A stretch of 64,000 nt of DNA from Physcia stellaris. Lineage: Eukaryota > Ascomycota > Lecanoromycetes > Caliciales > Physciaceae. The notes beneath the pieces were generated by a model. The model was not told where the DNA came from. It saw only the letters and a list, made by a program, of their open reading frames with translations, and made no database searches. Positions 6,112 to 36,407 of this stretch are shown piece by piece. The position numbers and the translations under genes were made by a program. Location: NCBI GenBank assembly GCA_018902385.1, contig JABSSW010000063.1:1-64000 (forward strand). Direction: 5' to 3'. Every line of letters starts with the position of its first letter. Positions within the stretch are counted from its first letter, which is position 1.

Positions 6112-6116
6112 AATTG

Positions 6117-11682: not shown

Positions 11683-12304
11683 TGATCCTATCCATTCAGG
11701 GAAAAAGTTGGGTAATTTGATCGTATCATGCAGCACAATATATGCGATATGATATGGGTCTCTTCTTTTTCCTCTATGCTTCTTCGCTGCAACAGCTGGT
11801 TCCACAAATGGAGCTATACATGAAGATCATCTGCAAGGTAGTGAGGGATTTGCGCCTGTACCTAGCTTATGGGAATGTGAGGACAGAAAGTGGGGTATTT
11901 CAAATATATAATTCTTCTGATATCCACTATCTATCTGCTCATCCTTTGTCTTTCTGTCCATGTATCAACAACAGGTTTCGATCTACAATTCTGCTGTGAG
12001 AGTCTTCGCATCTGTTCCTCTTCATGGAGCATTGGTTCTTTCCTTTCTTGAAGCACTTGCTCGACCTCCCATGGTTGTCCGTTCCGAACCCCTCTGCTTG
12101 GAACAGGACACTCCGCAACATGACAAGGGTAAGCTCAAGAAATGCATTTTATCAATCCGATCTGACACGTCTGTAGCTGGATCGAGCTTTTCTCTTTCTC
12201 CTCATGAGCCCCTTGCAGAAAAACCTCTGGATTTGGTCTCCATCGACTCTGCGGACATTGTAACTTCACGACTTGAGTTCACAGCAGTGGACTACAAAGC
12301 TAAA

Positions 12305-12437
12305 TGTTGGAATCGGTATGCCCCAGGGCCTTGGCAACACGTGACTAGGGCAATAGGCCAAATAAGCCACGGTCGCATGTAACTAGAACCCACACACCTA
12401 CATACTTTTTCAATGCAATACGATTCAGACTCCAACA
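12305..12437 (+). repeat. 5' LTR of the gag-only Copia-type element
   Basis: 133 bp with short inverted ends TGTTGGA / TCCAACA. Nearly identical to 13810-13942. Confidence 0.9.
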
Positions 12438-12545
12438 GGTTATGATGTTCGCGCACGCAGAAACTGCACATTAATCAGTCTTATTACATTATATTGTGTC
12501 CGTGATAGTCACGTCAACGCTGTACACGTCGTCGTCGTCGTCGCA

Positions 12546-13526: not shown

Positions 13527-13544
13527 TTGCCTCGGGGTATTTGA

Positions 13545-13800
13545 CCTCAACCTCACATGTAACGGAGGCCAAGATCTCCACCAAACGGCACAGGAAATCG
13601 AGGCCAAGATCTCGTACAACGTAACAGGAAATCGAGGCCCAAGACCTCGTACAAATAGCACAACAAGGGAGGCCCAGGACCTCAACGAAACGGCACGGAT
13701 TCGAGGCCAAAGACCTCACATACAAATGGAAACTCAACACCATGACGTCAGACGATAAAGGGAGCGAATAGGTAGAATCAGGCTTCAAGGCCTCAGGTGC
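13545..13800 (+). repeat. GAGGCCAAGA-type short repeats downstream of gag
   Basis: A phrase like CGAGGCCAAGACCTC with an ACGGCACAGGAAAT-like neighbour recurs at least five times at roughly 40-45 bp spacing between gag and the 3' LTR. It is non-coding and may be part of the packaging or transcript-end region of the element. Confidence 0.6.
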
Positions 13801-13809
13801 AAAAGGGAG

Positions 13810-13942
13810 TGTTAGGAATCGGTATGCCTCAGGGCCTTGGCACACGTGACTAGGGCAATAGGCCAAATAAGCCACGGTCGCATGTAACTAGAACCCACAC
13901 ACCTACATACTTTTTCAATGCAATACGATTCAGACTCCAACA
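13810..13942 (+). repeat. 3' LTR of the gag-only Copia-type element
   Basis: 133 bp, near-identical partner of 12305-12437, followed by the target duplication CTAAA. Confidence 0.9.
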
Positions 13943-14250
13943 CTAAATCGATCGCCTGTGGCTCATCTAGCCCAGCCTGCTGCATTTACAATCCTCCCTT
14001 TTATACATGCATCGATCGTATGTAATTCTTGTATCCGGTTTATTAAATCTCGATAGATTCTAATACGTTCCTAGCTGGTCGGGATCTTAGTAAAGACGGC
14101 CTTCGCAGACTGTGCGCGGCCACCGGGATTGAGGGTCATCAGACTCATCTTTGTTGCTGTGATAAAAGCTTCTTGGGGGTAAGTCATTATCAATATCATA
14201 TGTCACTAGACGTTACTGACGACATACAGTCTAATTGCCACCCTGCATGA

Positions 14251-14809
14251 ATTTGGAGAGGTTGCCTGGGATAACCTTTGCAAACCTGAGAAGCCGAGCT
14301 AATAGCTTTGGCAGGAGGAGAGTCGAGGGGAATTTGAACTAGTAACCGTGGTGGTGGACTGGACTTAAATTGAATAGACGGTAGCGGCCATTATTCTAAG
14401 CACTTTCGTTCAAAGGGGAGGTCCTGATGTTAGTATGTGATTTAAAGTAGCGAAAGTCTCTACCGTTTTCAATTACGAATCAATGCGTTGTTATGGGCTA
14501 CCAGTACGCGCACCCCCTATACCGGTATGCGCACCTCCCTTCCCCGGAGAAGTACCCGGAGCTGCCCCCGGAAGTTGTACGAGCCCAATATTTCATCTCC
14601 GGCCAAAGTTCGATTTCGCCATACAAAACGGACCTTTTTGTTGCAGATTTGTCTGCCATCTGTTTGTCTTTTGCATGTGATCCGGTCAGCAAATCAAATC
14701 GATCAAAACTCAAGATTTTGAAGCATGGTATGACTGCGATATTGGTTGAACAATTTTTTTGCGAACAATTTTTCTTTCAAAATTCTCTACAAGATATCTA
14801 ATCGTTTTT
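14251..14809. other. Edge of the gene island, no supported gene
   Basis: About 560 bp between the cysteine-rich gene and the AT-rich block. It includes a GC-rich stretch at about 14500-14600 with overlapping open frames on both strands, none with a recognisable domain. Composition shifts to AT-rich between about 14700 and 14810. Confidence 0.4.
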
Positions 14810-17800
14810 CGTCTGATATATGATTAGTTGCGTCATCTTTCATGCGTTCGCATTTCGATTGTTAATATACGTGTTAAAAAATTAATTAATGCAATTTTCG
14901 TCGAGTGATTTTCGTCGAATGATAAACAACACATTTTGCAAATTTCATACAAAGACGAAAATAAAATTTGACGATCAAAAATAAATAAAATATCGATTTG
15001 TTTTCGATCATTTCACGATTTACACATTTCGAATTTCATTGCAAATTTCTTTTTCTCAAATATATCGTTTTTGTATTTTTTATTTCGTGATGAATATTAA
15101 ATCAAATCGCAATTATGATACGACGAACAAACGACGACGAATTATAAAAATTATGTCGTTTGCGCATTTAGAATTTTCATACATCGATAAAATTGTTGAA
15201 AAAAATATTCAAAACTCGTCTGAATGATTATGTTTTTTCGAAAAGTTTCGTTTTCGTGAAAATTAATGATGCAAATAAAAAACGAAAACGATATAATTTC
15301 AAATGTCATCGTCATGACGAAAAGTTTCGTGATTACAGAAAAATTGCAAAAAAATCGACAAAAATTCAATATCAAACATAATTTCAATGAATGTTTGCAT
15401 TTTGTAAAATTGATATATTACAAATCGAAACAACATTATGTTTTAAAAATAATGAATTCGAAACATAATCACAAATTGTTTTTCAATTTTTATGATTTGA
15501 CACGTGTTCACAAAACTCGTGATTTTGATTTACAATAAACAAAACAATTAAATCAAAATTTAATCGAAACGAATACGAAATATAAACAAATCAACAAAAT
15601 GTTTCGATGTTACGAGTTTCGACTCAATGCGATAAAATATAAAAATCTTTTATTGAAAATCAAAAAAAACATTTCAAAAGAAATTACGTTGAACTTTGAG
15701 AAAATTAAAAAATCGTGAATTTCACGTTCGAATATCTGAACAATATATTGTTGTTGACAATATACGAATTCATAAAAAAATCGATTTCTTTTGATTTTGC
15801 AACGAAAAACAAATACACATGATTAGAAAATTTGAAAACGAAACAATGATACAAATCGATACAACGTTCAATATCGACAATTTATTGTTTTTTTATTCGT
15901 GTTAATGATAATTACGAATATTAATACGACGTATTTCGTGATTTATTGTTTCGTGACTTTCGAATCGATCGAAATTTTCATGTTTATGTATGATTGTATG
16001 CGAAATTTTTCTTTTACGATGATTGTTTTGATTTTGCTGTTTTTTAAACGATTTCGCTGCAAATTTCATAGTTTCAATAACGAAAAAACGTCGAATAAAA
16101 TCGATTTTACATCAACGAAAAATGAAAATCGAACGTGCGAAAAAATGCATAAAAATCGTTTTTAAAATAGAAATCGAAATGTCGAAAATCGAAAACGATT
16201 GCAAATTTCAATGTTGCATTTGACATGTTGTTCAAACGATCAAAAAACGACTTATTAAAAAAATTATAAAATTGAAACACGCAAAACATACGTTGATCGT
16301 ATTTGAATTTGAATCGAATCATTTATTTTCGAAATTTTGAAAATTAATCGAAAAATCATGTTTTCGACGATGTATTTAAAAAACAAAAATACATTCGATC
16401 GTTTTATGATTTCAAAAACATCAATTCGTGAAAACGTACATTCGTTTCAATCGTAACTTTGAATGCAATTTCAATTAACGAATTGAAAACATTCATTTCG
16501 ATGTTAAAAAAATGACGAATAAACAAACGTTTTCGAATATCGCAACAATTCGAATAGACGAACAAATTTAAAAAAAATCATGATATATGAATTAAAATTA
16601 AATGATCAACGAACGTATTTTTCTAAATCGTTGCAACACGATCGACGATCATTCAAATGCATTGATTTTTATTTTATTCATTATGTTTTGCTGAGAATTT
16701 TCGAGCAATGAATAAAAATCAAAAAATGAATTATTGAAATCGAAAATAACAAAAATATTGCGTTCGTAAAAAATAAATGCGAAAACGAATGCGAAAATTC
16801 GTTGCGTTACGTTTTGTTTTGCAAATGTTGATTATATCGTTGTGTCATTGAAAAAATTTCGATATTTATTTTATTCATGCATTTTCGTTGACTTTTTGAC
16901 GATTTCGAGTATGTTGTTGATTGACAAATGAATTTCAATGTCGATTTCGAAATCGAAAATTATTTTCGAATAATTGTGTTCGAATTTATTAACATCAACA
17001 ACGATAACAACGATGACAATGACGAGAAAAAAATGAAATTGTCGCGTTAATCAATACAATTGCGATTTCGTTTTCGAAATTCGCGAAAAATCGTTACGTT
17101 GTTAAAAATCAAATTTTGTTTGAAAACATTGATATTGATTTTTTTGAAATGCACGAATTCATTAAAAATTTTCACGAACAAAAAAATACGTCAAGAAATT
17201 TGTCGATTTGATGAATATCTTGAATCAACGATGAAAAAAAAAAATCAACAACAAGTTTTTTTTTCAGATTTTTTTTTTTGCAAAACTCAACGAGAATTTG
17301 AAATTCAAAAAAATCGAAAACGTGCGTTGTGTGATTTAAAAATCGTCGTCGAAAACGAAACATTAACACGTAATCGTGTTCGAATTCAAATGAATTTTCA
17401 ACGCAATGAAATTTTACATAAAAATTTAAAAATCAAAAATTGCGAAACGAAAAATTTGCAAACTCAATATCAAACAATAAATGAAAACGAGACAAAAATA
17501 TCGCAAATGCAAACGAATTACGTATTGATCATACAATTGCAAAAAACAAAAAACGAAATATTAAAAAAAAAACGTTCAAATGAAAAACACGTTTGAAATC
17601 GAATTTCAGAAAAAAACGTTTCTTGATTTTTCGTCGATAAATTTTTTTTTTGTTTTCGATAAACGTGTTTTTTGTCAGTAAACGAAAAACGATCAAAAGT
17701 TCGAAAATTTTTCAAAATCAAAACAGATCGATGTTCAAAGTTTTTTCGAATTTTTTTCGAATTTTTTTCTTTTTTGAATTTTTTCTTTTTCGATGCGAAT

Positions 17801-18462
17801 TCTGAAAACGATGACGCAAAATCGTTCAATGACACAAAATCGTTTATTAAACAATATTGAAATCTGAATCAAATCAAAAAACAAAATCAATTTATCAATC
17901 AGATTTTAATCGAAAATTAAAAAACATCGATTTTTATTGTTCAAAACATTCGCAATCGACGCGAAATAATTTCGAAATTCACGAAAAAATCGAATTGCAA
18001 AAATTCGTCGACGAAAAAAAAATAAAAAAAAATCGAAACGAAAAAGTAACGACGAAAAATCAAAAAAAAAAAAAAAAAAATAAAAAGCGTGCGAAAGTCA
18101 TGAAATCTAAAAAAAAATTTATTTCGCAATTAAAAATCATGTTCGCGAATTTCAATTTTTCACAATAAAATAATTAAATAGATAGAATTCACTGTTGCAA
18201 TAAAATCAATTTTTGAACATTTTTCTTTTTTTATCTTGACGTTTACGAATTTTATTGCGTGAAAAAAAATTCAAACACGCGTTGAATTGTGTCAAAAATA
18301 CGTATTTATGAATCAAAACACGAATTAACAATTCAAACACGAAAAAGAAAAATGATATGATCGTCGATGAAAATAAATAATCGAAAATCGAAATCGAAAA
18401 CGACGAGAAAATGTGCGTTCGACAAACGAAACGTAATTTCGTTTGATTTTTATCATCATATT
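14810..18462 (+). mobile_element. Mutator-like (MULE) DNA transposon relic, heavily mutated
   Basis: AT-rich DNA with traces of a MULE transposase on the + strand. The frame at 15266-15538 has an FAR1/WRKY-GCM1-like DNA-binding pattern: a cysteine (NECLHF), then YKSKQHYVLKI, then KHNHKL, matching the C...HxH layout found at the N-terminus of fungal MULE transposases. The next frame, from about 15540, continues with a helical LIxxNTKYKQINKMFR-like segment typical of the region before the catalytic core. Further downstream only fragments are visible, including a lysine-rich, coiled-coil-like stretch at 17060-17596. Many stops occur. No terminal inverted repeats could be fixed, so the limits are approximate. 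Part of the interval may be other repeat DNA. Confidence 0.55.
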
Positions 18463-18658
18463 TGTAAAAATGTAAACATTGCGTGATTAAAATGTGCGAA
18501 TAATAATATTAATTGCTATAATAAATGTTAAACACATAATAAAATTAATTGTTAAAAAACAGAAAAAAATTCGTGAAATTTCGAATATATAAACACGAAA
18601 TGCGACAATTAAATTCGCAATGTTTTAACGTTTGCTTGATCGATTTCGTCTCGTTACA
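18463..18658 (-). repeat. LTR of gypsy family B (3' LTR on the minus strand)
   Basis: 196 bp, paired with 33835-34030. More AT-rich than its partner, which retains more G and C. Confidence 0.85.
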
Positions 18659-21600
18659 ATTGTTTTCTTTTTGAATGATCGATTTTTCGTGTCAAATATC
18701 AATGTTTTTGCAATATATTCATAATGCATCGCAACAACGTTGTTTTGTATATAACATCGTGTTTTCAACGTGTAATTTTGAAACATTGTAATTCAATAAA
18801 TAAAAATAACAATAATAAGGTAATTTAATTTCAAATATCGCGTTTATGTTGTGAAATCGAATCGAAATAAATCGCGTCATGTGTTGATGAATGTTTATTT
18901 CAATTTTTCAATTCATTTTTTGAATTTTTTCTTTTAACATTTTTATTTCATAACATGATAAATATTTCATTTGATTTTTTTGTTTTTGCAATAACAATAA
19001 TTATTGCGACAATGATGTCAACATGATAAATCGTTGTTTGTACAATTATCATATTGCTTTTGCAAATGATAATGTTGTCGCAATGATGTTTCAATGACGA
19101 CGAAATTGATTTTCGAACATCGACAATACAATGCGTGTGTTAACGATGCAATAAATCATAATTTCATTTTTTTTTCGTCGTTGTTTGTTACGTTTCGCAA
19201 AAACACGCAATTTGTTATTTTTGCTGTAAATGTATTGTAAATAGCGATGACGTTGCTGACGCGTATTAAATTGAAAAAATTTTTACGTTCGAATTGTTGA
19301 ATACAATTAATACGACAAACATGTATTCGAATCGCGATGTTCGCGATCGCATTGTAATCAAATTCAATAAACAAACACACACAATTGTTTCATATCAATT
19401 TGACGCGTAACAAAATCAATTCATATATGATGTCAACGTTGCGTTCGAAAATTTCGTTATGATTCAAAACACGTTTGCGTTTTTTTTTGACGAAAACAAA
19501 CGAAACAAATGCGAACTTTGCAACAAAAATTCTCATTATTGTAAAAGAAACAATGTTTTTACAAATTGCAAAACAACGTTTGCATTTTCGTTGTCAAAAA
19601 TAACGACAATTTGAAATTGATTTTTCAACATTGAAAAAATAATAACATACGATTTTTAATGCATAACGTGATTAACATGAAACAAAATAACATGAAAAAA
19701 AAAAAATTCGTTGTTTTTTATTAAAAAATTTTTTTCGCAAATTTGCGTTGATTGTCACGTCAAAATTCGTTGAAAAAAAATATCATTTTGTTTGTTTTTT
19801 TTCGTTTGTTTTTGTTTTTGTTCGAAAAAAATTCGAATTTTTTTGTTTCGTTTTTCGATTTTCGCGTCGTTTTTTTTCGTTTTTGTCTCGTTTGCGTTTG
19901 TTTCGTTTGTTGATTTCGTTACGTTTATATCGCAAACAAATTCGTTTGTTGTTACGTTTGTTTTTGCGTCGATTTCGATTCAACAAAATCACGTAATCAA
20001 TGATAAACAAAATTTCATTAAACGCAACGACAATTAACATGACGCAATCGAAATCGATTTGATTGTTGTGATGTGAATTTTGATTGATAAATTTATTAAC
20101 GCGTTAATTTACATTTTCGTGTTTTTTTTTTCGATTTAATGATCGCATGATTTTGTTTGTTGTTGTGTTTTTTTCGTTAAATGTTGAATTTTGTTTTTTG
20201 TTGTGACGTGTTGTTTTGTTGTTTGTTTGTTGTATACAAATTGTGCATGTAATCAAAAACAATTCATAATATCATTTTATTGTTTGTGTTTTTGCGTCGC
20301 AATTATTGTTATTTTTGTTTTTAAATCGTTCACGTTTTTTCAACTTTAAAGATTGACGTGTTTGTTTTTTTGTTGAAAATTTTTCGTTCGATTTCGTTTT
20401 GAATTTGTTTGTTTTTCGACGTTTCGTAAGTTTTTTAAATTTGCGTAATTCGCGCGCATTTTCGAATTTGACAATTGCGTTTTTCGTATTTTCGAAATGT
20501 TTCATTGATTTTCACGAATTCTCATATGACGATGAATTTATTCATGCAATAAAATATTTAAATTGATTTTTTTAATGCGTTTGTTTAGCATTTGCGATAT
20601 TTTTCGTTTTTTTTTCGTTTTTCATTAATATTGATTGCGATTTTGAATTTGCGTCGTCACGATTATATTAAAAATTCGAATAAAAAAACATGAAACACAA
20701 AATGTATAAATTCATATTGTTTAAACAAATCAAATTCGTAAATTTGCGTATATATTTTTTTGACAATTTCGAAAAAATTCAATTATTTATGATTAATTTT
20801 TTTAAAACGTAATGTGCGTATATTTACATCACGCAACAACATTTTTTTTTTAAATTCAAAGTTTTTCATTATATGATTTTTATTATAATATTTGATTTGT
20901 TGTTCGAAAATCGTTTTTCACAAATTCATTAAATGCGTTCGATTGTTTCGTAACGTTTTTGTTTTGTTTGTTGCAAATGTTGTTTTTTTTTTTTTTGAAA
21001 ATTGTTCACAAAATCGCTGTTTAAAATCGCAACGTATTCAAACAAATTTTTTGAAAAATTTGATCAATGTTTGAATGTTTGTTATTATTATAAACAAATT
21101 GTGTCATGAATAACAATTTTGATCAATTATTTTGTTTGAAATTGTAATACATTCGCAAATAATGTTCGAACACAACATTTTGTTTTTTTGTTTGTTCATT
21201 TGTTTGTGAATGAAAAACAATATTAAATTTACGTTTCGTTTTCAAATTTTAACACAAAATAAATCAAAAATTGTTTATGAAAAAAATTTTGATTCGAAAT
21301 AATGTTACGTATTATTTCATAACGACATACGAATTCTCGTTATAGCAAATTCGCAAAATCTATCGCGTTTAACGTTTTTGTGATTGCTATATACGTTGCG
21401 TATTTCGTCAATTTGTTTATCAATATTAATATCGAGTCGTTAATCTTTTCAATGTAAAAATTTTTAACAAAAAACATATTTGTAATGAAATTCATGATAA
21501 TTGTATCGAATGATTGTTTTTTTTTCGACGAAATTGTTATCATATCGTCATAAAATTTATGTCGATGAATTCGCATTCGTTAACAATTTGAACAAATGCG

Positions 21601-21734
21601 TACATAATTTGTTATTTTTTAATTATGTCAAATCAAAAATATTTGCGTCGCACAACATTTTCGTCGAAAAAATGTTTTTATTGATTTTTACGTTTAAATT
21701 CGATTTCGAGTCGATTAGTCGATTAGTCAAAAAC

Positions 21735-21969
21735 TATCATGAATCGTGCTTGAATAAACGTATTATTGATTAATTAAACGAAAACAATAAGTTTGCAAAA
21801 GTAAATAAATACAAAATGTTGAAATTGCAAACAATGTGCGACGTCAAGTTTCAAATCATGTTAATTTCGACGTAAAATTAAAACATAATTCGTTGTTCGA
21901 TCATATCATATCAATTATCTATTTATCAAATTTATTTGTCAAATCTATTTGTCAAACATGTTTGTAACA
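21735..21969 (-). repeat. 3' LTR of gypsy family A copy 2
   Basis: 235 bp, minus orientation, preceded (minus strand) by a purine run, as in copy 1. Confidence 0.85.
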
Positions 21970-24900
21970 TTAATTTTTTTTTCGCGAACGTTGTTTCGAC
22001 GATTCGTCGTTAATTCGAAACGAAAACGTTGTTAATTGTTTTAAACGAATTCAAAATTCGAAATTTTCACGATCATTATTTAATTTATTTTTTGATTTTT
22101 TCAATATGTTGTATTAATTCATAATTTAATAAAATCGAACAACAATTTTTGAAAATGTTTTTGACATAATTCAATTTTTTATACAACGTAAATTTTGATT
22201 GTAAACAACGTCGAAACGATAATAATAAAATTTGAAATTAAAAAAAAATTTGAAACAAACGAATGAAATCAAAATAAATTCAAATTTTCAAATTTTAATC
22301 GAACGTAATTTCGATGAATGTCAAAACGACATTTTTTTCGAAAACGACGACGATTCGCAAATAAATTTTGATCATCGATTTAAAAAATGAAAAAAATAAT
22401 TTTGAATGATTTCGAATTTGCGACGATAAAATGAATTCGATAATAATCATTTATCACGTCACGAACATTATCGAATTCATCGTTATCGACGTAATATCAA
22501 ATTCGATCATGCGATCAATTTGATCAATTGACGCGATATTGAAAACGATCGTAATGATATCGAAATTTTAAAATATCGTTCATTTTTCATTCGAAATTTT
22601 CGTTGATTACAACGAAATCGAATGATTCGTTGATTTGATTTTCGAAAAAATCACAAAAAATTTTGCGCAAAAATCAACAATGAAACACATCATAAATTCG
22701 CATTGTTTCAAATAATTCAAATTGATAAAAATTGCTCATACGTTTTAATATTTTGTATGAATCAAGTTTTTTGTCATCAAGTTTGTCGAATAATTTAGCG
22801 ATTTTGATGTTTCGTCGATTCAAAAAAACGTAATTTTTTTCGACGTATTCGACGATTTTGCGATGTTTGTTGATTTGTGTCGTCATGCGTTTTTGAATTA
22901 TTTCGACGTGAATTCGTACATAATCGAAAATGTTTTGCATTGTGTTCGTGATGTTTTTCGTTTTAACGATCAAAAATCGTTTTCTTGTCGTGACATACGA
23001 AATAAAATTCGATAAAAAATTCATACGTGAATGAAAATTTTTGTTGACGAAAAACGATGACAATTCAATAAATGCAAAAATCGCGTTATTGTTTGCAAAT
23101 TCGATCATAAATAATCAAACGTTTCAATCGTTTTGCATGTAATTGCAATATTGTCGCAATTGTTTTTCGATGTTTTGATTGATTTTTTCGATTTAATCAT
23201 CAGTTTTTGAATGAAAAATCGTGAAAAACTTACATTTGATGTCGAAAATTTTGCAAAAAACTTGTCATACGAAAAACACGAATTGAAAATTTCGATCAAA
23301 TGTTATGAAAAAAAGCAAATCATGAATACGAAACACGTATTGAATGAATATCTTTGCTATAATTTCAGCATTCGTGTTTTCGTTTTTCGCTGTACAAAAT
23401 GCATAATGACGTTTTTTATTAAATTTGTCGATTATCGTGCAAATGACATTATGATCGTGAACGTCAAATAATTTCGTGATAAAATCAATGAATATATTCG
23501 TTTAACGTTGCAAAAATATAATCAAAAAAATGAATAATTCGTTTTTACGATTTTTGAAAATTTTAATTCGTTGACATTCGTGACAATTACGTACGTATCG
23601 ACGAATTGTTTTGCGCATGTTGAATCAATAATAATCACAACGTAAAAAATTTTTTATGCGATTAAATTCAAAATAATTCGATGCGAAAAATTCATGAATT
23701 TTTTTGAAAAAATCAACGAGCAAAAAAACATCGACGAACATTTATAATCGATTTTTGTAATATAAAACATCGTTTTTTTTTGACAATCGCGTAAATTGAT
23801 TTCATTCACGAAAATGAAATTTTGATTGAATGTTTCACGATATGTTCGATAATCGTCGTTTGTTTTGTTTGCAACGAAAATTCGTTCGTAAATTGATTCG
23901 TCAAATTCGACGACATGAATTTCGAATCGTTTTGAAATAAACAACATTTGTTTTTTATATTGATGTCGTTCGTCGTTATCGTTTTTAAATCGTGAATTCG
24001 ACATGCGAATCAAAACGTCTGTTTTAACGTTTTGAATTTTTGATTGAAACTGAATGACGATATTGAATTTCGATAAAATTTCTGCTCAACGAATTTGACG
24101 AAAAATTAATTTTTTCGAAATTATGAAAATTTTCAAATTTTTGTGATCGATGAAAATCTTGATCGATTCGTCAATGTTTTCGAATTTTGAACGTCAATGT
24201 TTCAAACAACGAATAATAATCAATAATTTTTTGTTATAAATTTCGTAATTGCATTCGATTGAAATCATGTTTCGATTATAAAAAACAACGAAATGCAAAA
24301 TTTTTTCGTCATTGTATTGCGATAACATTTTCGCATTGACGTAATTTGAAAAATCGATTTCTAAAATGATTTGTTTGATTTTATCGTAATGACGAAATAT
24401 AAAAATTTCGATCACGATTTTTTTGAATAAATTAAAAATCTTTTCGACTTTCGTAATTCATTCGAAATTTACGAATTTTTTGATCATGCGAATGAAAATT
24501 TTGATTTTTTCGAAAAATCGCGAATGAAACGTCGATAAAAATTGACGAAATTCACGAAAATCTGAATTTTTTTGAAATTGATAAAACGTGTTCAATCGAT
24601 TATGATTTGCATTTTTTTTTGAATTCATGCGAAAATCATTTATCGAAAATATAACGTTCAAAAAAATCATTTCTTTTTTGAAAAATTCGCATTTCTCAAT
24701 ATTCATTTGTAAATCGATTTTTTTGAATTTTTTCAGCATTGTTCGAACGTGCACGATATGTTTTTTTTTGAATTTGTTGTAAATAAATATGTCATTCAAA
24801 TAAATTTGACAAAATTCGTTCAAAAATTGAACAGAAAATCATTTATGTAATGTTGTCAATTTGCAAAATCGTTGATTAATTCAAAAATAATATTCAATAC

Positions 24901-27900
24901 TTATACGATTTCATAAAAATAACGAACGTGATGAATTTTTCACTTTTTTCATTCATTCGAAATTTATTGAAAATTGATATGATATTCAGTTTGATCAAAT
25001 ATTTGCAATTTTGAATTTTGATCAGAATTTTTTCAATCAAAAAAATGAAATATCGATTGCGTTTCGTAATGTGATTGAATTTACGATAATTCACACACAA
25101 ACGTAATTGATCGTTAAATTTGATCGCAAATAAAACAAATAAAACATATATCGTTTGATTAAATACGATAAATTTTTTTTGCAAATTTTTTCAAATATTT
25201 TTTGAATTTTTTAAATTTGAATTCGAATAAAAAATACATTCGATTGCGAAATAAAAAATTGTTATCGTTCAACAATTCGATTTTATGATCGTATAATTTA
25301 TGAAAAAACAATTTGATAATTTTTTGAAAATCAAATATTTTTGATAAATGACGAAAATATTTTGACATTTTTTTCATTATGCGTTCGAATATCGATTTGA
25401 TTTGTTCGTGTTTTAAAATTTTTTTGATCATGACGACGATTTTTAACGATTCAAAATTCGTTTGTAACGTTTTGAGCGCGAAATCGATTTGATTGATCGT
25501 AATGAAAAAACATTGAACGTTTTGTTTTCGATTTTGACATCGATCAACAAACAAAAAAATTGCATCAATCATTGCGATATTCATCGAATCGTCAAAATTC
25601 AATTTTGAAAATAACGAAAATTTTGATTGTTGTTTTTTCGTTTTTCATCGTTTATTACGTTGATTTTTCAATTTTTTTTTTTGACGAATGTCGTTTTCGT
25701 AACAATCGTAATATCAATTTTTGAATTATTTGATTCGATTGTTGACGATTCGTCGTCGATATCGATTTTTGAATGAATTGAAGCATTCGAAACATTTCGA
25801 ATCGATTATATTTGATTCGTTTTCAACAATAAAAAATAAAAATTTGATTTTGAAACGAAACAAAATAATATATCGAAATTTCATCGTCGTTATATGTTTT
25901 GTATTATTTTTTGCGATAATTTTGCATCGCGACGTCAATTAAATATATTTTATCGACGATTTGATTTGAAAATTTTTAAACGACAAATTTGTATCGTTTG
26001 ATTGAATATGTTGTCGTGATGATTGCATTTGAACGATTTGAAAATCAATTTATCGTAAATCATGTTCAATATAATTTCATGTTTGTTCATTCACGATTTT
26101 TTTAAAATTATCGAATGATTATCGAAATCAATGATTAACAAAAAAACGATCAATTCGAAATGTAATTTTATCGTCAATTTGAAATATATCGCGTGAATTA
26201 TAAAAAAAACATGACGATCGTCGAATTCAATCAATAATTTCGATTTCAATAAAAATACGAATTTCATGTTCAACATGTTGCATACAAATTGCGCGATTTT
26301 TTTATCAATGAACGCATAATCAATTGCATCAATATTTATTAAAATTTTTAATTTATGTTTATTATCGTTGAATGATAACGTACAAATGATGATTAAAAAT
26401 CGTTTAATGAAAAAATCAAACATATTATCATCGTGAATAAAATTTTTTTTTAAACATTTATCAATCGCGTTTTTGACGTGAATCGTCAATTTTTCGAATC
26501 AAATTCGCTCGAATCAATATCGAAATTCAATTGATGCATTTGTAATTTATGTCATTGACGTTTTTGAAATTTATTGACGTTAAAACAAAATTTTCAAATG
26601 TGATCGAATTTTTCACACGTGAAATATTTGTTCGTGACAATCAATTGATCGATAATCGAATCATGTTTATAATCGTTTTTGAATTTGACAAAAAACGTCG
26701 ATATGATTGATTTAACGAACGATATTGCAATCGAAACAACAAACGTCGATTTGAAAATCACGAAAATTGATTTTTGAATTCGAATTCGAATTTTTTTTTT
26801 CGAATGTTGATCAAATCGTTATACATTTGTTGAATGTCATTTTTTCACGCGAACAAAAAAAAATGATGACGAAACGAATTGTTCAAAATTTGTTTTAACG
26901 ACATGATGAATTTGTCAATCAAATTTTTCATCAAAATAAATTGATCGAAATTGATTTGAATATTCAAACGATAAAAATTCGAATAAAAAAATTGAAAATT
27001 TTGAATATCGAACATGATCAGATTTCGATATTTTCGACGTACGTTGCGTTGATAATTTGAATTTTCATAAATGTTTTCGAAAAAAAAAATCATCATCATT
27101 TTATTTTCGAAGTAATTCAAATTGTTATATCGACGAGATTGAATGTGTTTGACGACGTTTTTTTCAATTCAATCAATTATTGTCGTGATTATGAAACGAA
27201 CGATTTCGTATCAATCATTGTTGATCGTGAATTTATCGTGAACGTTGATTTTTCAAATGAATCAATCAAAATTCATATCATTCGTAAATTTATCGAAATT
27301 CGAATGTTTGTTCGAGCGTTTTTTTTTTCGACGATTTGACAAAATTTGTAACAATCGAATCGTTATCAACAGATTTTTTTCGTCATCATCGATATTGTTT
27401 GAATTTTTATTTGAATCGAAATTGAAAACACGTTCAAAACGACGAATTTCATTCAATTTGATCAAATCGTCATATTTAATACGTTTGTCAATGAATTGAT
27501 TTATCATTCGTTTTTTTTTCTTTTTCGAACGTTTTAAATTTGTCGCGTATTTGTTCAAAAATATTATCGATATCGAATAAATTTTTTTTTGAATTTTGAA
27601 CAACTTGACGAATTCGTGAAAATTTTTTAAAACGATCAAATATTTGTTTCGATCGATGCGTAAATCATTGAACACGTTCAAAAAATCGTCGAAATGATGT
27701 TGAATTCAATATTTCAATTGACGAACGATTTTTATGTTCAAAAAATGCGTAATATCGTCATTTTGATTCGACACAACGTTTGATGTAAAAAAAAATTGAC
27801 GAAATTTGTAACGAATCGTGAATTTTTCATCGATTTTTTGAATTTTTTTCAGCATTTGCTCAACGTTTTTTTGAATTTCGTCGATATTCAAATTCGAACG

Positions 27901-28164
27901 AAATGAATTGAATGAAATTGTTTCATGATGATTGCGAATCATTTCGAAAAAAAAAAAAAATAGTCGTCGTTTTGTCGTTTTTTATCGTCGAAAACTTCGT
28001 CGTTTGCGTGTAAATTCGATTTGTAATTACACGATTTTCGTCGTTGATTTCGTCAAAAAAACTTTTCGTCGTTTGTTTTTCACGAAAAATTTGATCGATT
28101 TGAAATTTTATTTTTGAACGTTCGCGTATCACGACGAACGATAAAAATTGAAAATTTATTGTAA

Positions 28165-28399
28165 TATCATGAGTCGTGCTTAAATAAACGTATTATTGAT
28201 TAGCTAAACGAAAACAATAAATTTGCAAAAATAAATAAATACAAAATGTTGAAATTGCAAACAATGTACGACGTCAAATTTCAAATCACGCTAATCTCGA
28301 CGTAGAATTAAAGCATAGTTCGTTGTTCGATCATATCATATCAATTATTTATTCATCAGATTTATTTGTCAGATTTATCTGTCAAACATGTTCGTAACA
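28165..28399 (-). repeat. 5' LTR of gypsy family A copy 2
   Basis: 235 bp, partner of 21735-21969. It keeps more CT/AG sites than the 3' LTR. Confidence 0.85.
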
Positions 28400-28404
28400 G
28401 AAAC

Positions 28405-28990
28405 ATTGTTTTTTCGTAACATTGAGTCAAAAGTGATTGTATTTAAGTCGACTTTGAGTCAATTGAATCAACTTTGAGCAATGAATAACAAGATTTTAAT
28501 CAATTAAGCAAATCATTCACGTATTTAAGTCATTTAATAATCAAAAGCAAATTTTTTTATTTAATTGTTATGTAATGTATGATACACGTATTATATCATA
28601 AATTACATCTTTCTATGTGAAAAATACGTGAAATTTTCAAAAATAAAATTATTTTTTTCATAACGTTGATAACGGCGTCGCTACGCGCTTTCCGTTAGTT
28701 TTTTTTGACTTTTTTGACAACGAACATCAAAAAACGCGAAAACGCTAAACTTAATTGAGGTTTTTTCAATTGATGTCGAATTTCTACAACTGATTTTCGA
28801 CTTTTGACGCTTTATATTGACTTAAATATTTGTTATTGTTGATTAAATGACTCGAAATCGACTTAAATATTGCTAGTCATTTTAATGACTAAAAAGTCGA
28901 CTTATAACGCTTATACAGCTTGCATAACTCGCTTGTACGTTTTATGTCGATAAGCAATGAAACATCGACGTTCGATTTTTGTTTGCGCAA
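28405..28990. repeat. Less-mutated insert with inverted repeats (MITE-like), between family A and the rest of family B
   Basis: This stretch of nearly 600 bp keeps CC, GG, CT and AG dinucleotides that its surroundings have lost. Inverted arms of about 22 bp (28439-28460 and 28849-28870, core ATTTAAGTCGA) flank an interior with short palindromes. A further arm-like copy lies just left of the family A element at about 21692-21712, as if family A had landed inside or next to this sequence. It has no coding capacity. A MITE or other small DNA element is the best guess, but no clear target duplication was found. Confidence 0.45.
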
Positions 28991-30117
28991 AATGTTCAAC
29001 ATTTGAATCGTCATAATTTATACGAAAAATTTTTTGTTTTGTAACGAAATTTTCAAACACATAAATTGCGAAATTACGACGAAACAATTCATTTTTTTCA
29101 ACATTTCATTTCGAAAACTCGTTTTGTTTGTTTGCGTATTTTTGACGTCATTGTTTTTTAACAACAAAAACGTTTTTTTGTTGTAATTTGAATAATCACG
29201 CAATCATTGATTTTCGCAATTTCAAATAAAATTTTTTCGATTTCATAATTTGATGAACTAAAAATCGAAATGCGACAATGTTTAAAATTTTGCAAACACA
29301 TTTATCGAAAATTTTTTTATTCGAAACAATATTTCGAATATTTGTCGTAACAATATTACGCAATCGCGTTGTCGATGTTGCAAATTTGATTGAAAAACAA
29401 ACACACGTTAATCGTTTTGCAAATCAAATTGATAATTTTGATTGCGAAATTTGTTTCGCAAAAAATAAACAAAAATTTATCGTTGTTTTTGTCGTTATCG
29501 TTCGATTTCATAATATCAAATTTTCTCGACGACGCGTTCGTAAAATTCAATTTGTTTTTGCGATATTTTATATTGAAATCAAACACAATTAATTTTTCAA
29601 TTCAACGAATTTGTTTCGTATTGAATTTTTTGATTGTTATAAAATATCGAAAATTGTTGTGATCAAAAATAACGCGAATAAAATGTTTGTTATTTTGCAA
29701 ATAATGTTTTCAATTTTTGAAATCAAACATTATCGCATACAATTTTTTGTCATACGTATTTCAATTAATTTTTGTTTTTTTGAATTTGTAATTGAAAAAC
29801 GCAATAAAATGTTATTGATCGTTTTTGTTTTTTTCATTAAACACATTATTTGTTTCGCGATCAAAAACATTAATTTTCATGCGTAATTTCGTTTTTCAAT
29901 CATAATGCGTAAAAATAAAAACAATCGTGAATTTGATTTTGAACTCGTTGAACGCAATTTTAATTTTTTTGTCATAACAAACAAGTTTGTTCGTGAATTT
30001 TTTCAAAAAAATTCCGTGCAAAACTTCAAAGTTAGATTTAAATCTGATAAAATTGCGAAAATCGATATTTCGCAATTTTTTGATTTCAGCGATTTCGCAT
30101 CTTAATAGCATTTGCAT

Positions 30118-30845
30118 TCAATAAATAAAAATACAAACGAAAACTCGTTTTGAAAACGAAATGAGTTTTATTCAAATAATCAATAATATCGAAAATCGAT
30201 CGAGTGCGCATTGAAAATCGAAATCGCATTGAAACGTTGCAAACATAAAACAAATTTCGAACGCAACAATTTTTGACAACGACGTGAAATTTTCGAAACT
30301 ATTGCGATAAAATCGATTTCGATAATTTTTGAAGCATTGAAATGCATTCATTTTGTTTTACAATCTTGAATATGAATGAAAATTATTTTTGATTGATGTG
30401 CAAACTGCGAAGCAACTGTACAAATCACGAAAAATTGAACGAAATCTTTTCGCAAACATTTCAGTTGACGATTTGACACAAATTTGACAAACATGAAGTT
30501 TTCGAAGTCGCAAAACTATTGCGACAATGAATCGATTTTTATCATTTTTGCAGCGTTAAAATGCGTTCATTTTGTTTTACAATTTGAATTAAACAAATAA
30601 AAATCATATGAAATTGCGATTGATCAACAACGCAAAATGAAAAAACAAAGCGTTTTGAAGTGATTTTGACATATGTTTCGATTGAAAACTTGAATTTTCA
30701 ATTGATGAAAATTATCGACTTTAACAATAACGAAAAACGATTTTTTTCGATTCATTCGCGTCAAGCGAATTTACAGAATATTTTATTATAAGAAGATTCT
30801 ATGAAAAACGATTTTTTTTTTCGCATCACGCGTCAAATTTGTAAA
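30118..30845. repeat. Non-coding interruption between reverse transcriptase and RNase H of family B, with direct repeats
   Basis: In gypsy elements RNase H follows reverse transcriptase directly, but here about 720 bp without coding traces lies between them. The insert holds an imperfect direct repeat of 75-90 bp (about 30287-30363 and 30494-30583), both ending GCRTTCATTTTGTTTTACAAT. It could be a small inserted repeat of unknown type. Confidence 0.45.
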
Positions 30846-33834
30846 TGATGTTACGATTTTCGAAATTTTTTAACAAAACGTTTATAAAATTCAACAAAAT
30901 TTAAAAAAATCATAATATTTTTCATTTTCGAATTCAAATAATCAACGATTGCGTTTATACGCGAACGTTTTATTTGAATATCATTGCGTTCAACAACGAA
31001 ATTTAAAAAATTGATATTTTTTTTGTTGAATTCGCATTTTTTCAATTTGACATACAAACGATAACGTAATAACGTTTTAAACATCAAACGAACATGTTTT
31101 TAATATTGTTGTTCATTTTCGAAATAAATCAATATATCATTCAAATACATCACGCAAAAAACGTCAATGTATAATTTTAATATTTCATTAACATAAAATT
31201 GAAAAATAACAAAAACGTTAACAAAATCGAAAAACATAATTTGATATTCGTATTGTTCATAACGAATACGAAAAGCAATTTTTCATTTATTTTTTGACGA
31301 ATACGAATTTTATAATACGCATTTCGAATGTTTATTTTGATAAAATGTTTAATATTCGCGAAACGTTTTAACGTTTCAAACAACAACGACAATGAATAAT
31401 TGTTTTTGATCGTGATTTCATTGAATTTTCGATAATTCACACATAAACGCAAATTGTTATTTGATTTTTTGACAAACAACACAAATGTTTTCGCAAATGC
31501 GTTGAAAAAACGAATTTATTTTTTCGTCAACGCATTTTCGAAATAATTGCGTATAACAATAAATTCGTCGTGTGACATATTGTATATAAATTCAAAACGC
31601 GATTTTTTGTTTGATTGCAAATCAATAATATATTCGATTTGATTATGCGTATTCAAATTGTTCGACAACGTTTTGAAAAATATTTCGATTATTTTTTTGA
31701 TAACATCAAAAATGTAATCGTTACGATTCATTTGTAACGTATCACAACGAACAACATTTCGTTTTCGATATTGATAATTTTGTGTTAAAAAAACATTTGA
31801 TATGACATTGCGACATAAACACGATCGCGATTCGCAATGACAATCATAATTAAATCAACGAATTTTTTCGCAAAACAAAAATTGATTGAAATTTGTTTGA
31901 ATTTTTCATAATTATTATCACGATATAATTAACGACGATCATGTCAACGAATATCAAAATCGACAACATTCAATCATAAATATTCAAAAATTATGTCGTA
32001 TTTACGCATGTCAATCGTTCAAAAATCAACATTTTGTTTTTTTACATGTTTTTCGTTATTTCGTGTCATGATATGCACGTTTTCATGATGTTCGTACATT
32101 TGAATCACACGATCGTCAACAGTTTTTACATGTTGTTTAGCAATTTCATTGAATTCAAACAATTGCATTTGTTTGACAAAAATTTGTGATATAAAATTCG
32201 TTTCGACATCAAAATCAATCAAACAAATAATTGTTGTATTGTTTGTTTGCGTAACAAATGTTTTGATTGATAACGTGATTATCAAAACACGAAATTTATT
32301 TCGTTTTAAATTTATTTTCAATGTTTCAACGACAAACATCAAATTCGTTTTTTTTTTCGACGATTGATTTTGATTTTGATTGCGTTTTTTTTTGAATTTG
32401 CGCATAATTTTCACACACAAAATCATTTGTTATGTGATTCGATTTGTAACATGAAAAACATGTACGTTTTTCGAATTTTGAAAATGCGAAATTGTGATTT
32501 TGATTTCGATTTTTTTTTTTTTTTGTTGATTTTGTTGCGATTTCGAAAATTGATTTTGATTGTTTTTTTGAACGTTGTCAAATTCAACAAATTTGTTACG
32601 CGAAATTTTTTTGTTTTTATTTTTGTCATCGTCATTGTCATTTTTTTGATTTTTTTGATCATTTTCATTATTTTGTTTTGTTTTCGTAACATTGTTCGAC
32701 GATTTATTTAACGTATTATCGTCGACAAACAATTGTTTCGCAATCAACAAATTGACGATTAATTTGAAATAAAAATCGATTTCATGATTTCGCATTTTTA
32801 CACATTTGATGCGAATGAAAACATGAATTTTGATCAACAATTTTTTTTGTCGTTTTTCGTTCGAAACGTGACGTTTCAATTTGTTTCACAATTTGATTAA
32901 ATATTGATTGAACGCAACAATGTTTTGTCGAAACAATTGTTTGACATTTTCAATGACAATAATCGTGTTCATGACACGAATCATCGAATTGTTAAACAAC
33001 GTCAACAAATAATTTTTATATTGTTTTCATGTTTGTTTTTCAAATTGAACATCAACATAATTACGTTATTGATTTTTTTTTGTCGTTATCAAAAACGACG
33101 TCGATCAACTTGTTTTCATTTTTTTTGTTTGAAAATTAACAAAATCGAAAACGATATATTTTTCGCAATCACGCAATCAATTTTTCAAATTGTTTCAATT
33201 TTCACATTTTTGCGTGTTTGAAATTTTTGATCGTGCGATTCGTTTTTTGATATACGAAAACGAATTTTCATATTGATTATCGTTGTTGCGACGACGACGA
33301 CGATTTCGATCACGTTTCGTTTTTGTCTTGATCAAAAATATTTTAAAATCATTGAATTTTGATTCAATTTTCAACATTTTGATACGCATTTTCATTTGTT
33401 TAAAAATTATGTTTGAATCGACAACAACAAACATAATGATATCGCTATTTGACGACAACGAAACAAAATTGTTTTTTCGTTGTGTTTCATTTTGACTAAA
33501 ATGCGTAACAAATATTGAATTGAAAAATTGATCAACATTTGAAATCAAAAATTCGAAAATTGAAATATATTTAATTGAAACGTCGATATCATTAAAATCG
33601 ACAAAATCATCGTTTTCATCAAAATTTTCGAATCGAACATCATCAAACAATTCAATAATTCGATCGATAAAAAAAAAAACATAAAAAAATTGTTTGATGA
33701 AATGATGTTTGATTGTAATGCAATCGATACGATCGCACGATCACGAATTTGCGAACGAATTTTGCGACGACGAAACGCATTTGTTGAATTAAACATTTTT
33801 AATCGAACAATTTTTGATGTAAAACAATTAAAAT

Positions 33835-34030
33835 TGTAAAAATGTAAACATTGCGTGATTAAAATGTGCGAATAATAATATTAATTGTTATAATAAATGT
33901 TAGACACATAGTAGAACTAATTGCTAAAGAAACAGAAAAAAATTCGTGAAACTTCGAGTATATAAGCACGAGATGCGACAGTTAAATTCGCAATGTCTTA
34001 GCGTTTGTTGATCGATTTCGTCTCGTTACA
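33835..34030 (-). repeat. LTR of gypsy family B (5' LTR on the minus strand)
   Basis: 196 bp with a TATATAA box-like sequence near 33959-33965. It is the better preserved copy. Confidence 0.85.
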
Positions 34031-34345
34031 ATATCAATTTTGCAAAAACGACGACGAAATATATCAAATGAAAATCATGCATATCGAACGCATCAAAGCG
34101 ACGATTAAATATGTTCAATGATTAATAAACATAATACATACATCAGACGAAAGACGATTAAATACTTTGTAAAACACTTTGAAAAGAAAATTGTTCGCAG
34201 AAAAATTGTTGATTGAACGTTCTTCGAATGACGACGAGACGCTTGATTGAAATAAATGACTCGTTGATGACGAAGCAAGTCATTATTCAATTCGAAAGTA
34301 TCGCTACAAATGTCGCAAACGAAATGTCGCAAACGTGAGAGAAAT
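34031..34345 (-). mobile_element. Short remnant with a C2H2-like finger, similar to a motif in gypsy family C
   Basis: The minus-strand frame 34105-34332 opens with MRHFVCDICSDTF and NNDLLRHQR. This is like the FRCRRCRKIFSFNN block in the family C element near 54900. That resemblance, and the AT-rich state, suggest a small LTR-element remnant at the block edge rather than a host gene. It is broken and short. Confidence 0.35.
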
Positions 34346-34398
34346 CTGATAATTTGTTGCAGGTGTCACGAATATCTCAACATCATGTACGTACACTC

Positions 34399-34527
34399 GG
34401 TACAGTCCCCTTTCACAGCGGGTGGTTAGCGTAAAATGCTTGACTTAACTTCAAGAAGTAAGCGTCACAGAAAGAATCCCTGCTGACAGGGATCTAATCC
34501 TTGAGTACTTGAGTAGGGGACTGTACC
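34399..34527. repeat. 129-bp foldback sequence with perfect 13-bp inverted ends
   Basis: GGTACAGTCCCCT at 34399-34411 is inverted exactly as AGGGGACTGTACC at 34515-34527. The interior contains a tRNA-like phrase (GGTGGTTAGCG) and a further small palindrome. It lies just outside the AT-rich block. The size and ends suggest a MITE, but no target duplication is clear. Confidence 0.6.
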
Positions 34528-34529
34528 TC

Positions 34530-36407
34530 CTGAGCCTCCGTAGTCTTATAATGCCAGTCCGCACCGATTGTCGACTGTTTCGCATTATGACGTTTGCTTA
34601 CAAAATCAGCATATGATGCAGGTTGGCTTAATTCGATTGTGAGTCAGGTGGTGAGTCTCATCCAAAACATACAAAGCAACAGCCATCATGCCTTCGCCGT
34701 CTGTAGCGAGCATAGGAAAACTACAACGAACTTGTTCCTTTTCCACGAGGCTCTTGCTGCTTTTCTCGGTCGATCTGACGTCACAGAGAAAGGACCTGAG
34801 AGGAGCAATGACCGCGGCGTTCAATTTTGTCTTGTGGCTTGGTCCATTCCTTCCACTGCAACAAAAGAGCCAAAAAGGCTTTAGTGGAGTACACCTTGTG
34901 TGCAAAGCCACAGACGACTTGAGATAAAGTAGTAGAGTGGCAATGAGCGTCTAGACTATACTACATGAGACTACCGGCCTGGAGTGCTGGGTGAAGCCCC
35001 CCCTTCCAACCCCCTCTCCTTTCTCTCTTTCTTCTTCCCATTGTTCCTAAGCTGAGTATCTCTGATGTTGATGAGAGAGCATCGGGACTGCCTACAAGCA
35101 TTTCAAGATCCAAGACTTCGAGGTGGCCTAAACAGTGCGAACCTGTATACGTATGTATATGATTCAATTAAGCTATCAGTGCAGCATGCAGTGTTCTTTG
35201 TGCTTAAAATTCTAGCCAGCCTATGGCTTAAATTCTAGGCAGCCTATGGCTGCAGAGGTGTCCAGGGCATACGTGAATGCAAAATTTTGGAGACTTTGCT
35301 CCCAAGATGGTTCGCAAGACTGATATAAGCCATGCGACATGGTATACTGCTTCCCCATGCACTGACAGATTCTTAGACTACTCTATGACACCATTTACGC
35401 GACATGCATGATAGAGAAACTGATGCGAAAACATGGAAAGTGGGGCGGCTGTGATCGATAGGCCTTCTCGCTTCATAGTAGATTCGTACCCCGTCGTTTT
35501 TCGCTCGCCATTCTTCATTTCATCCTTGCCTCATCCACTCAATCAGGGAGACTCCACTCCTCCTTCACCGCATAACCTTGTCGCGCTGGTATAGGAGGCA
35601 TTTGATTCCGCAGTCTAATCAGTTGGGCCCCCAAGAGAAGCTCAATTAGTGGTCTACCGGCCGGTCAGGCCCAAAGACCATGGTTTTTATGTATCATAAT
35701 TAAGGAGTATTGGTGGCATCAGCGGTAAGAACAAGACAAAATGACCAACGAATTCCTTCAAGCTCTGTTCCTCCGCCAACGCAGATAGCACAGAGATGCG
35801 GTGTACGCTAGACAATCACCCGAAGTGACTATTAGCAACTCAAAGCTGTCTCTCCGTCGACCCAGGTTGGGTACCTCCATGTCTGAATGGCGCCTGAGCA
35901 GGTGCCAGGCCCTTTCCGCGGTCTTCCTCCTGCGATCGGAGTTTCCCCCTCGAGCTTGGTTTTATGCTTCAAGACTGCGCGTGGGATCCAGCTGCTGTGC
36001 GATTGATGACCTTCCTGTAGTGTACCATTGCAGATGAATGAAATACGTTCTTCACAATTCGTTCCAATCGGCCACATAAAGCAATACAGGCGTGTACGTA
36101 CGATGTCAATGAATAGAGTCGTACGAAGAGAAAGCATGATGATATGAAAAATGTGAAGCATTTGCTGGGTGATCTATGCCACAAACATCCTCACATCGTC
36201 GTGAAATTTTTTTGGTGGCTGTTTCAGATTTACCAATTGATATCTTCAACGAAACTCATGATTGAAGCGTAAGGTTTTCTGCACTTACAAATGACGGATT
36301 TCCACCTAATTATTCTACTTCTAACAGAATCACATTAGGGAAACACCAAGTGACACAAAACCTTCGTGAGTTTAGTAGAAACACCAACGTCGGCCCGTCT
36401 ATAGATG
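34530..36407. other. Intergenic DNA, no supported gene
   Basis: About 1.9 kb of normal composition. Open frames on the two strands overlap without domain signals. A 22-bp direct repeat (AAATTCTAGSCAGCCTATGGCT, two copies near 35206-35252) is present. No tRNA or rRNA was recognised. Confidence 0.5.

Follow-up and report, generated by a model that had tools for sequence, protein, structure and literature searches.

Repeat-induced point mutation (RIP) in Neurospora crassa is reported to strike C in the order CpA > CpT > CpG > CpC, and that of Trichoderma reesei to treat CpA and CpG about alike, followed by CpT > CpC, in a text from which a sign is missing (PMC5496416). A kingdom-wide k-mer survey, in the part accessible, describes a CpA preference as shared by RIP-like defences (PMC12543289). 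We have analyzed a 64,000-nucleotide stretch of the ascomycete Physcia stellaris (Lecanoromycetes; contig JABSSW010000063.1, positions 1 to 64,000; hereafter the window) and find that its transposons are hypermutated from C to T before a pyrimidine (CpY, that is CpC or CpT) on both strands. CpA is a weak target, seen in the most mutated copy, and change at CpG does not rise above background. The order of preference is CpC > CpT >> CpA > CpG.

Targets other than CpA have been described, and the statements that follow are those of the accessible portions of each source. RID-bearing species carry CpA or CpT signatures, and Magnaporthe oryzae and Botrytis cinerea T4 lean toward CpT with CpA second (PMC4352252). 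Copia families of Colletotrichum truncatum are CpT-dominant in alignments, with a (CpA+TpG)/(ApC+GpT) of 0.09-0.12 and a TpA/ApT of 1.64-1.67 (PMC6180176), and a survey of RIP-capable fungi also reports CpT-to-TpT as the dominant change in alignments (PMC7882544). Short ribosomal DNA repeats of Stagonospora nodorum show high CpT-to-TpT without CpA-to-TpA and are described as presumably not RIP-affected (PMC2621366). In repeats of Monacrosporium haptotylum, CpA is not decreased and TpA is raised (TpA/ApT 1.12) (PMC3828140). For Rhizoctonia solani AG8, Table 2 of the report gives CpC as most frequent (every 214 bases (b), versus every 370 b for CpG), whereas its text argues for CpG (PMC4014442). 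DIM-2 of Neurospora carries out non-CG methylation with a CpT preference and is directed by HP1/H3K9me3 (PMC13297926). No published case of CpC as first target with CpA spared was found in the portions consulted of a set of open-access papers.

All results below pertain to this one window, with dinucleotides tallied on both strands. At 14810-34030 (19,221 b) we counted 5 CC, 262 CT, 2375 CA, 2354 CG and 2262 TA, with observed-to-expected (o/e) ratios of 0.01 for CpC, 0.14 for CpT, 1.28 for CpA, 3.63 for CpG and 0.43 for TpA. Half-kilobase windows with a GC content >40%, which served as the gene-island reference for o/e, were normal (CpC 0.94, CpT 1.07, CpA 1.10, CpG 0.87). The depletion goes beyond base composition: in 300 random permutations of this sequence CC+GG numbered 651 +/- 20 (minimum 593) against the 5 observed, and CT+AG 1845 +/- 33 (minimum 1771) against 262. 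The loss affected both strands and did not depend on reading frame. The first-pass annotation of this DNA had claimed a near-absence of CC and GG over many kilobases, and the count is stronger than that claim; its tally for 15001-15180 (19 CpA, 3 CpT, 0 CpC and 13 CpG sites, or 26 on both strands) was exact, and the comparison of AT-rich blocks with gene islands that it proposed shows, within the window, blocks that have lost CpC and CpT and islands that are normal. Its statement that CpA and CpG were spared agrees with the o/e ratios but has to be qualified for CpA, since in a 3.3-kb repeat pair described below 44 of 396 CpA (11%) of the less mutated copy are TpA in the other. The classical RIP indices are negative in the three AT-rich blocks of the window, with TpA/ApT at 0.41-0.49 (threshold >= 0.89) and (CpA+TpG)/(ApC+GpT) at 1.20-1.30 (threshold <= 1.03; both thresholds as quoted in the accessible part of PMC3828140). 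From the ratios of CpA, CpG and TpA it follows that there was no large-scale removal of CpA or CpG. TpCpG was not lost either, TCG standing at 1.02-1.25 of its gene-island level.

The two long terminal repeats (LTRs) of one element are identical at insertion, and differences between them are therefore later mutations. Of 12 repeat pairs found, 9 were analyzed and 3 short ones omitted; gap columns were excluded throughout, and four LTR pairs in mutated DNA were pooled while the other five pairs were kept apart. The pooled pairs differ at 78 positions (13 CpC, 54 CpT, 3 CpA, 4 CpG and 4 transversions), 74 of which are transitions, occurring both as C/T and as G/A. Discordant sites make up 67 of 105 CpY and 7 of 180 CpR (C before a purine; p = 1.5e-29). 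By class they comprise 13 of 19 CpC, 54 of 86 CpT and 3 of 104 CpA; like the o/e of CpA (1.28) and TpA (0.43), these figures do not mark CpA as the preferred target. All 29 differences between the LTRs of a half-mutated Ty3/gypsy element (the 52415/59788 pair) are CpY transitions (13 CpC, 16 CpT), and the 42 CpR shared by the two copies are unchanged. Together with the LTRs of the middle element of the large block (the 18462/33834 pair), this amounts to 42 differences in 401 aligned bases, every one of them a CpY transition. The 4 transversions and the 7 CpR changes are all found in the two other, older-looking pairs. One of these belongs to the short LTR element spanning 4152-6111 (12 differences: 9 CpT, 2 CpG, 1 transversion), the other to the inner Ty3/gypsy element of the large block (24 differences: 16 CpT, 3 CpA, 2 CpG, 3 transversions).

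The inner element and its partial second copy form the 3.3-kb pair, which has 248 differences (122 CpT, 1 CpC, 64 CpA, 33 CpG, 1 gap-adjacent and 27 transversions). Sites of the less mutated copy are T in the other at 98 of 113 CpT (87%), 44 of 396 CpA (11%) and 13 of 405 CpG (3%); in the reverse direction the figures are 22 of 37, 10 of 362 and 10 of 402. The asymmetry at CpA (44 versus 10) suggests that CpA, too, was weakly targeted in the more mutated copy, and the changes at CpG (13 versus 10) look like background. A third LTR copy (252 b) shows 35 differences (18 CpT, 8 CpA, 1 gap-adjacent, 8 transversions), and the arms of the outer inverted repeat show 12 (10 CpT, 1 CpA, 1 transversion). 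At the middle element, the right-hand target duplication is ATATC, followed by A, and the left-hand one is ATATT, followed by the T of the LTR. If C was ancestral, one C stood in two contexts and met two fates. Around the whole nest, the inverted repeats measure ~79 b, and the sequences next to them, GGTTG and GATTG, could represent a target duplication in which one G following a purine has changed.

In the 52415/59788 pair, the partner of the better-kept LTR has lost 12 of 18 CpC, 13 of 34 CpT and no CpR. In the surrounding 51760-59605, the fraction of C retained is 0.070 where C follows and 0.250 where T follows, compared with 0.445 and 0.498 in the island 34396-50909. These losses and retentions indicate that CpC was mutated about twice as fast as CpT. 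With A, G or T on the 5' side, C in the three blocks is kept at 0.81-1.05 of its island level before A, 1.02-1.49 before G, 0.00-0.25 before C and 0.05-0.65 before T; a 5' C was left out because it is itself a target. The 5' base thus has little effect, and the 3' base decides. At 51760-59600 the G of RpR (purine-purine) is kept more often than the C of YpY in 13 of 16 half-kilobase bins, a gap that may stem either from strand-biased action or from the composition of the ancestral sequence.

Mutation rules were compared by simulation, in which gene-island DNA was mutated by script and its L1 distance to the blocks calculated, on the assumption that the elements once had gene-island composition. 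With CpY alone mutated, the GC content came to 0.239, and the L1 distance was 0.097 for the large block (0.635 unmutated) and 0.153 for the left block (0.579 unmutated). Distances to the large block under other rules were 0.760 for CpA, 0.635 for CpG, 0.579 for CpA+CpT and 0.398 for one partial round at any C. Full CpY conversion fitted the half-mutated block poorly, as expected (0.384, versus 0.398 unmutated). When fitted on a coarse grid with 12,000 gene-island bases, that block received per-round rates of 0.5 for CpC, 0.1 for CpT and 0 for CpA and CpG. The fitted CpG rate was 0 in all three blocks, and the CpA rate 0.03 in the large block and 0 in the other two. With a CpG rate of 0, the high CpG ratio is a passive remainder.

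The rule also marks the reading frames. As CpC is practically gone from the large block, almost all Pro and Gly codons and every TGG for Trp are lost, TGG having become the stop TGA. If TGA is read as Trp, the longest frames of the three blocks run to 513, 518 and 433 codons, versus at most 143, 181 and 269 under the standard code. Six frames in the transposon blocks hold 48 TGA, 0 TAA and 1 TAG, five of these frames having been preselected for lacking TAA and TAG. Three frames of saturated blocks contain no Pro, Gly or TGG codon and keep 15, 18 and 23 CAA and 22, 28 and 42 CGN codons; three frames of the half-mutated block hold 1 Pro, 3 Gly and 3 TGG in total. In a comparison with Ty3 (4ol8), two of the three Trp of the aligned stretch are matched by Trp read from TGA and the third by Ile. 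Simulated on the polymerase gamma frame of a gene island, full CpY conversion added 22 stops and left no Pro or Gly codon, versus 69 added stops for full CpA conversion. A CpY mutator damages proteins by substitution more than by stops. Composition, diverged copies, one target duplication, TGA stops and simulation all show what the first-pass annotation had proposed, a C-to-T change at CpY on both strands of transposons.

Borders of blocks and islands were drawn by a three-state segmentation with hand-set values (Table 1). Mutation is confined to blocks that hold transposons, and at the large block segments and element ends agree to 57-173 b: the inverted repeat begins at 14749 and finishes at 34210, which leaves the left edge extending 57 b, and the right edge 173 b, beyond it. 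Transposons are nested within the large block: inverted repeats enclose an LTR element (18462-34032) that in turn encloses a Ty3/gypsy element (21735-28416), the only element with a second long copy within the window. The less mutated patch of this block adjoins the LTR of the inner element on its outside and contains 3 of the 5 CC/GG.

Table 1. Positions of blocks, gene islands and transposable elements in the window
Feature	Position	Strand	Remarks
Large saturated block	14838..33900		C kept 0.001-0.002 before C and 0.023-0.030 before T (saturated stretches)
Less mutated patch within large block	28291-28954		Segmentation
Half-mutated left edge of large block	14692..14837		Segmentation
Half-mutated right edge of large block	33903..34383		Segmentation
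Second block, mostly saturated	1..7785		Half-mutated patches 4-371, 3043-3266, 5858-6097
Third block, mostly half-mutated	50912..60405		Natural intermediate; saturated patch 51376-51757
Normal patch in third block	59608-59952		Covers part of right LTR
Gene island, normal dinucleotides	7786..14689		Segmentation
Gene island, normal dinucleotides	34396..50909		Polymerase gamma 43374-46649 and others
Gene island, normal dinucleotides	60406..63998		PI3/PI4-kinase with FATC domain
Outer inverted repeat, left arm	14749..14826	+	84% match to 34132-34210 reversed
Outer inverted repeat, right arm	34132..34210	-	Pair with 14749-14826
Middle element LTR, left copy	18462..18660		13/13 differences from 33834-34032 are CpT transitions
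Middle element LTR, right copy	33834..34032		Target duplication ATATT (18458-18462), ATATC (34031-34035)
Inner Ty3/gypsy LTR	21735..21984	-	Pair with 28165-28416
Inner Ty3/gypsy LTR, other copy	28165..28416	-	Pair with 21735-21984
Inner element RT/RNase H frame	23657..25210	-	RT_RNaseH E 2.2e-18; open if TGA = Trp; 12 TGA, 0 Pro, 0 Gly, 0 TGG
Inner element 507-codon frame, gag position	26461..27981	-	Without Pfam match; 10 TGA, 0 Pro, 0 Gly, 0 TGG
Partial second copy of inner element	1..3278	+	Inverted relative to 21731-25002; 91.4% over 3296 columns
Second-copy RT/RNase H frame	2..1540	+	RT_RNaseH E 2.7e-20, RVT_1 1.2e-10; Ty3 structures E ~1e-25; open with TGA = Trp; 7 TGA, 0 TGG, 0 Pro, 0 Gly
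Short LTR element	4152..6111		LTRs 4152-4336, 5928-6111; AATTG target duplication
Half-mutated Ty3/gypsy element	52415..59991	+	LTRs 52415-52617, 59788-59991; exact TCAAT target duplication; RVT_1 at 56283-57314, RT_RNaseH at 57322-58170
Copia-type element, unmutated, internal control	12305..13942	+	In gene island; CTAAA target duplication

The Copia-type element has a gag frame at 12387-13526 (Retrotran_gag_2, E 7.8e-07) with 15 Pro, 18 Gly and 7 TGG codons; no pol was seen in it, and its near-identical LTRs of 133 b differ by a sole substitution, CpC/TpC. Pfam searches of 10 degraded frames placed 4 above the cut-off, one of which also gave a sub-cut-off chance match (Interferon), left 5 without a match and put 58005-59039 (SH3_Tf2-1) just below the cut-off. 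Among a further set of 10 degraded frames, 3 of them shared with the first, none rose above the cut-off and 8 had no match at all. The minus-strand frame 50940-52298, reminiscent of a fungal piggyBac-type transposase, yielded in Pfam only zf-Tnp_2 at E = 2.5, and this identity is therefore not claimed. Among 10 gene-island frames, 2 were without a match; the islands encode domains of polymerase gamma, PI3/PI4-kinase with FATC, PIG-Y, cation efflux, CofD-like and Mannosyl_trans3 proteins, and a sub-cut-off ATR-type repeat match lies beside the PI3/PI4-kinase. This ordinary eukaryotic gene content, together with gypsy and Copia elements and the alternation of AT-rich blocks with islands, suggests a filamentous ascomycete. 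An imperfect tandem repeat in a gene island (11380-11684) has 11 differences (3 CpC, 2 CpT, 4 CpG, 2 transversions) and no CpY bias. Scans for tRNA genes and Rfam families found nothing. Searches of viral contigs with the third-block reverse transcriptase, the Copia gag, the ATR-like kinase, polymerase gamma and a 21-base pattern from the Copia LTR yielded no relative.

Several processes could be held responsible for this pattern. Slow decay, with 5-methylcytosine lying mainly at CpY in transposon heterochromatin and deaminating spontaneously without an active mutator, could draw on the non-CG, CpT-leaning methylation described for DIM-2 in the accessible text (PMC13297926), and blocks at half-mutated and saturated stages would suit such a clock. 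We consider it unlikely, however: 25 of 52 CpY of the better-kept LTR of the 52415/59788 pair are lost while the remainder of its 203 aligned bases is identical, the CpY rate in that pair is by hand estimate at least ~30 times that of other sites, and the 18462/33834 pair shows 13 CpT changes and no other. Confinement to transposons, borders at 57 and 173 b, action on both strands and 42 CpY-only changes in 401 b favour an active, repeat-directed process. The damaged base might in principle be G instead of C, as C-to-T at CpC/CpT equals G-to-A at GpG/ApG and sequence alone cannot separate the two. A G after a purine, for instance alkylated, would then have been read as A, with a strand-symmetric spectrum like that of temozolomide (SBS11), which consists of C-to-T with a CpC/CpT preference and is genome-wide. 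Chemical damage, however, would not halt at transposon borders or spare gene islands, and we know of no targeted G-alkylating system in fungi, although no search aimed at one was made; this explanation appears very improbable.

APOBEC/AID-type cytosine deaminases and ultraviolet damage all yield C-to-T as well, but the former read the 5' neighbour (TpC, CpC or WRC) and ultraviolet also hits TpC, whereas in the three blocks a C that follows T and precedes A or G persists at 0.81-1.25 of its gene-island level, and what matters is the 3' base; that either struck these transposons is more doubtful still. Nor do we give more than a slim chance to ordinary causes such as drift toward AT, foreign DNA with an unusual composition, codon bias, or an artefact of sequencing or assembly. 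The blocks are indeed AT-rich, but shuffling their bases gives 651 +/- 20 CC+GG where 5 are observed; both strands are affected, whatever the reading frame; CpY sites account for all differences between the younger copies; and codon use is normal in the adjacent genes and in the Copia element. Ordinary CpA-type RIP that first exhausted its CpA targets and left CpT as the visible change would match the CpT dominance reported, in accessible passages, for alignments of CpA-depleted families (PMC6180176, PMC7882544). CpA in the window is nonetheless undepleted (o/e 1.28, TpA 0.43; TA/AT 0.41-0.49; (CA+TG)/(AC+GT) 1.20-1.30), and, with CpA intact, exhaustion cannot account for the CpY bias; we give this account practically no chance.

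We therefore favour, as the probable explanation, a RIP-like defence whose target has switched from CpA to CpY, most plausibly through a RID- or DIM-2-like methyltransferase that reads the 3' pyrimidine. A RIP-like process fits best because the mutation is confined to transposon blocks, sharply bounded, present on both strands and made up of transitions only in young-looking copies; RIP proper, in addition, is triggered by duplicated sequence beyond a threshold of length and identity, is premeiotic and depends on a RID (Masc1-class) gene. The rule is read from the 3' base, as from a DNA cytosine methyltransferase, and DIM-2 leans toward CpT, both of which favour a re-specified RID/DIM-2-like route. 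By this route a RID/Masc1- or DIM-2-type cytosine methyltransferase would act on duplicated DNA, with CpY in place of CpA as its target; T would then replace the C, whether modified or deaminated directly; and repeated rounds would bring elements to saturation, with CAA and CGN codons surviving. The enzyme, the repeat trigger and the timing are what we infer here. Several points weigh against this explanation. RIP as known favours CpA in most fungi (accessible parts of PMC5496416 and PMC12543289). Strand runs of mutation were sought in the half-mutated block and none was found, and in three of the four LTR or copy comparisons of older elements in the repeat blocks there are also CpA, CpG and transversion differences. 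The Copia element in its gene island is unmutated, which by itself tells against an all-embracing process; the element may have escaped because it is too recent, too short or present in too few copies.

Probably, then, the window belongs to a fungal lineage with a repeat-directed mutator that is not of CpA type and acts on C when a pyrimidine follows (or, equivalently, on G when a purine precedes it), CpC first, with CpA nearly and CpG wholly kept, whether its enzyme is a re-specified RID/DIM-2 or an entirely different one. The usual indices would class such genomes as free of RIP, and standard tests would miss the defence; since the TpA/CpA indices are negative here, some fungi called RIP-free may not be. 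Transposon frames would be left with hardly any Pro, Gly or TGG codons and would gain stops at Trp only, and the cost to coding sequence would differ from that of a CpA rule (22 versus 69 stops in the polymerase gamma frame). Why RIP selects CpA is, so far as we know, unexplained, and a natural near-reverse order would allow the target rule to be mapped by enzyme comparison. If the process in the window is RIP-like, it would also be a counter-example to the shared CpA preference stated in the accessible part of the k-mer survey (PMC12543289).

Among known systems, the temozolomide signature SBS11 has the same C-to-T change at CpC/CpT but differs as genome-wide chemical damage that is not confined to transposons. 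DIM-2 differs in that it methylates rather than mutates, and a CpC preference is not stated in the passages available (PMC13297926). The CpG-type mutation of basidiomycetes (TpCpG in Microbotryum, CpG in Rhizoctonia solani) is likewise a repeat-linked C-to-T bias, but it acts on CpG, a dinucleotide retained in full here (o/e 3.63). As in the window, CpT is among the main targets, according to the portions available, in Magnaporthe oryzae, Botrytis cinerea T4, Colletotrichum truncatum and Anisogramma anomala (PMC4352252, PMC6180176, PMC10998396). These four differ in having a CpA signature too, or CpA depletion with raised TpA, and CpC is not named as main target in those portions. Stagonospora nodorum (PMC2621366) and Monacrosporium haptotylum (PMC3828140) are nearer cases, yet the accessible text does not name CpC as main target for them either. 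The window resembles Neurospora crassa RIP in its C-to-T change on both strands of transposon DNA, its saturation, its sharp borders and its AT-rich blocks between gene islands, and departs from it in its order of targets, CpC > CpT >> CpA > CpG, and in its negative RIP indices.

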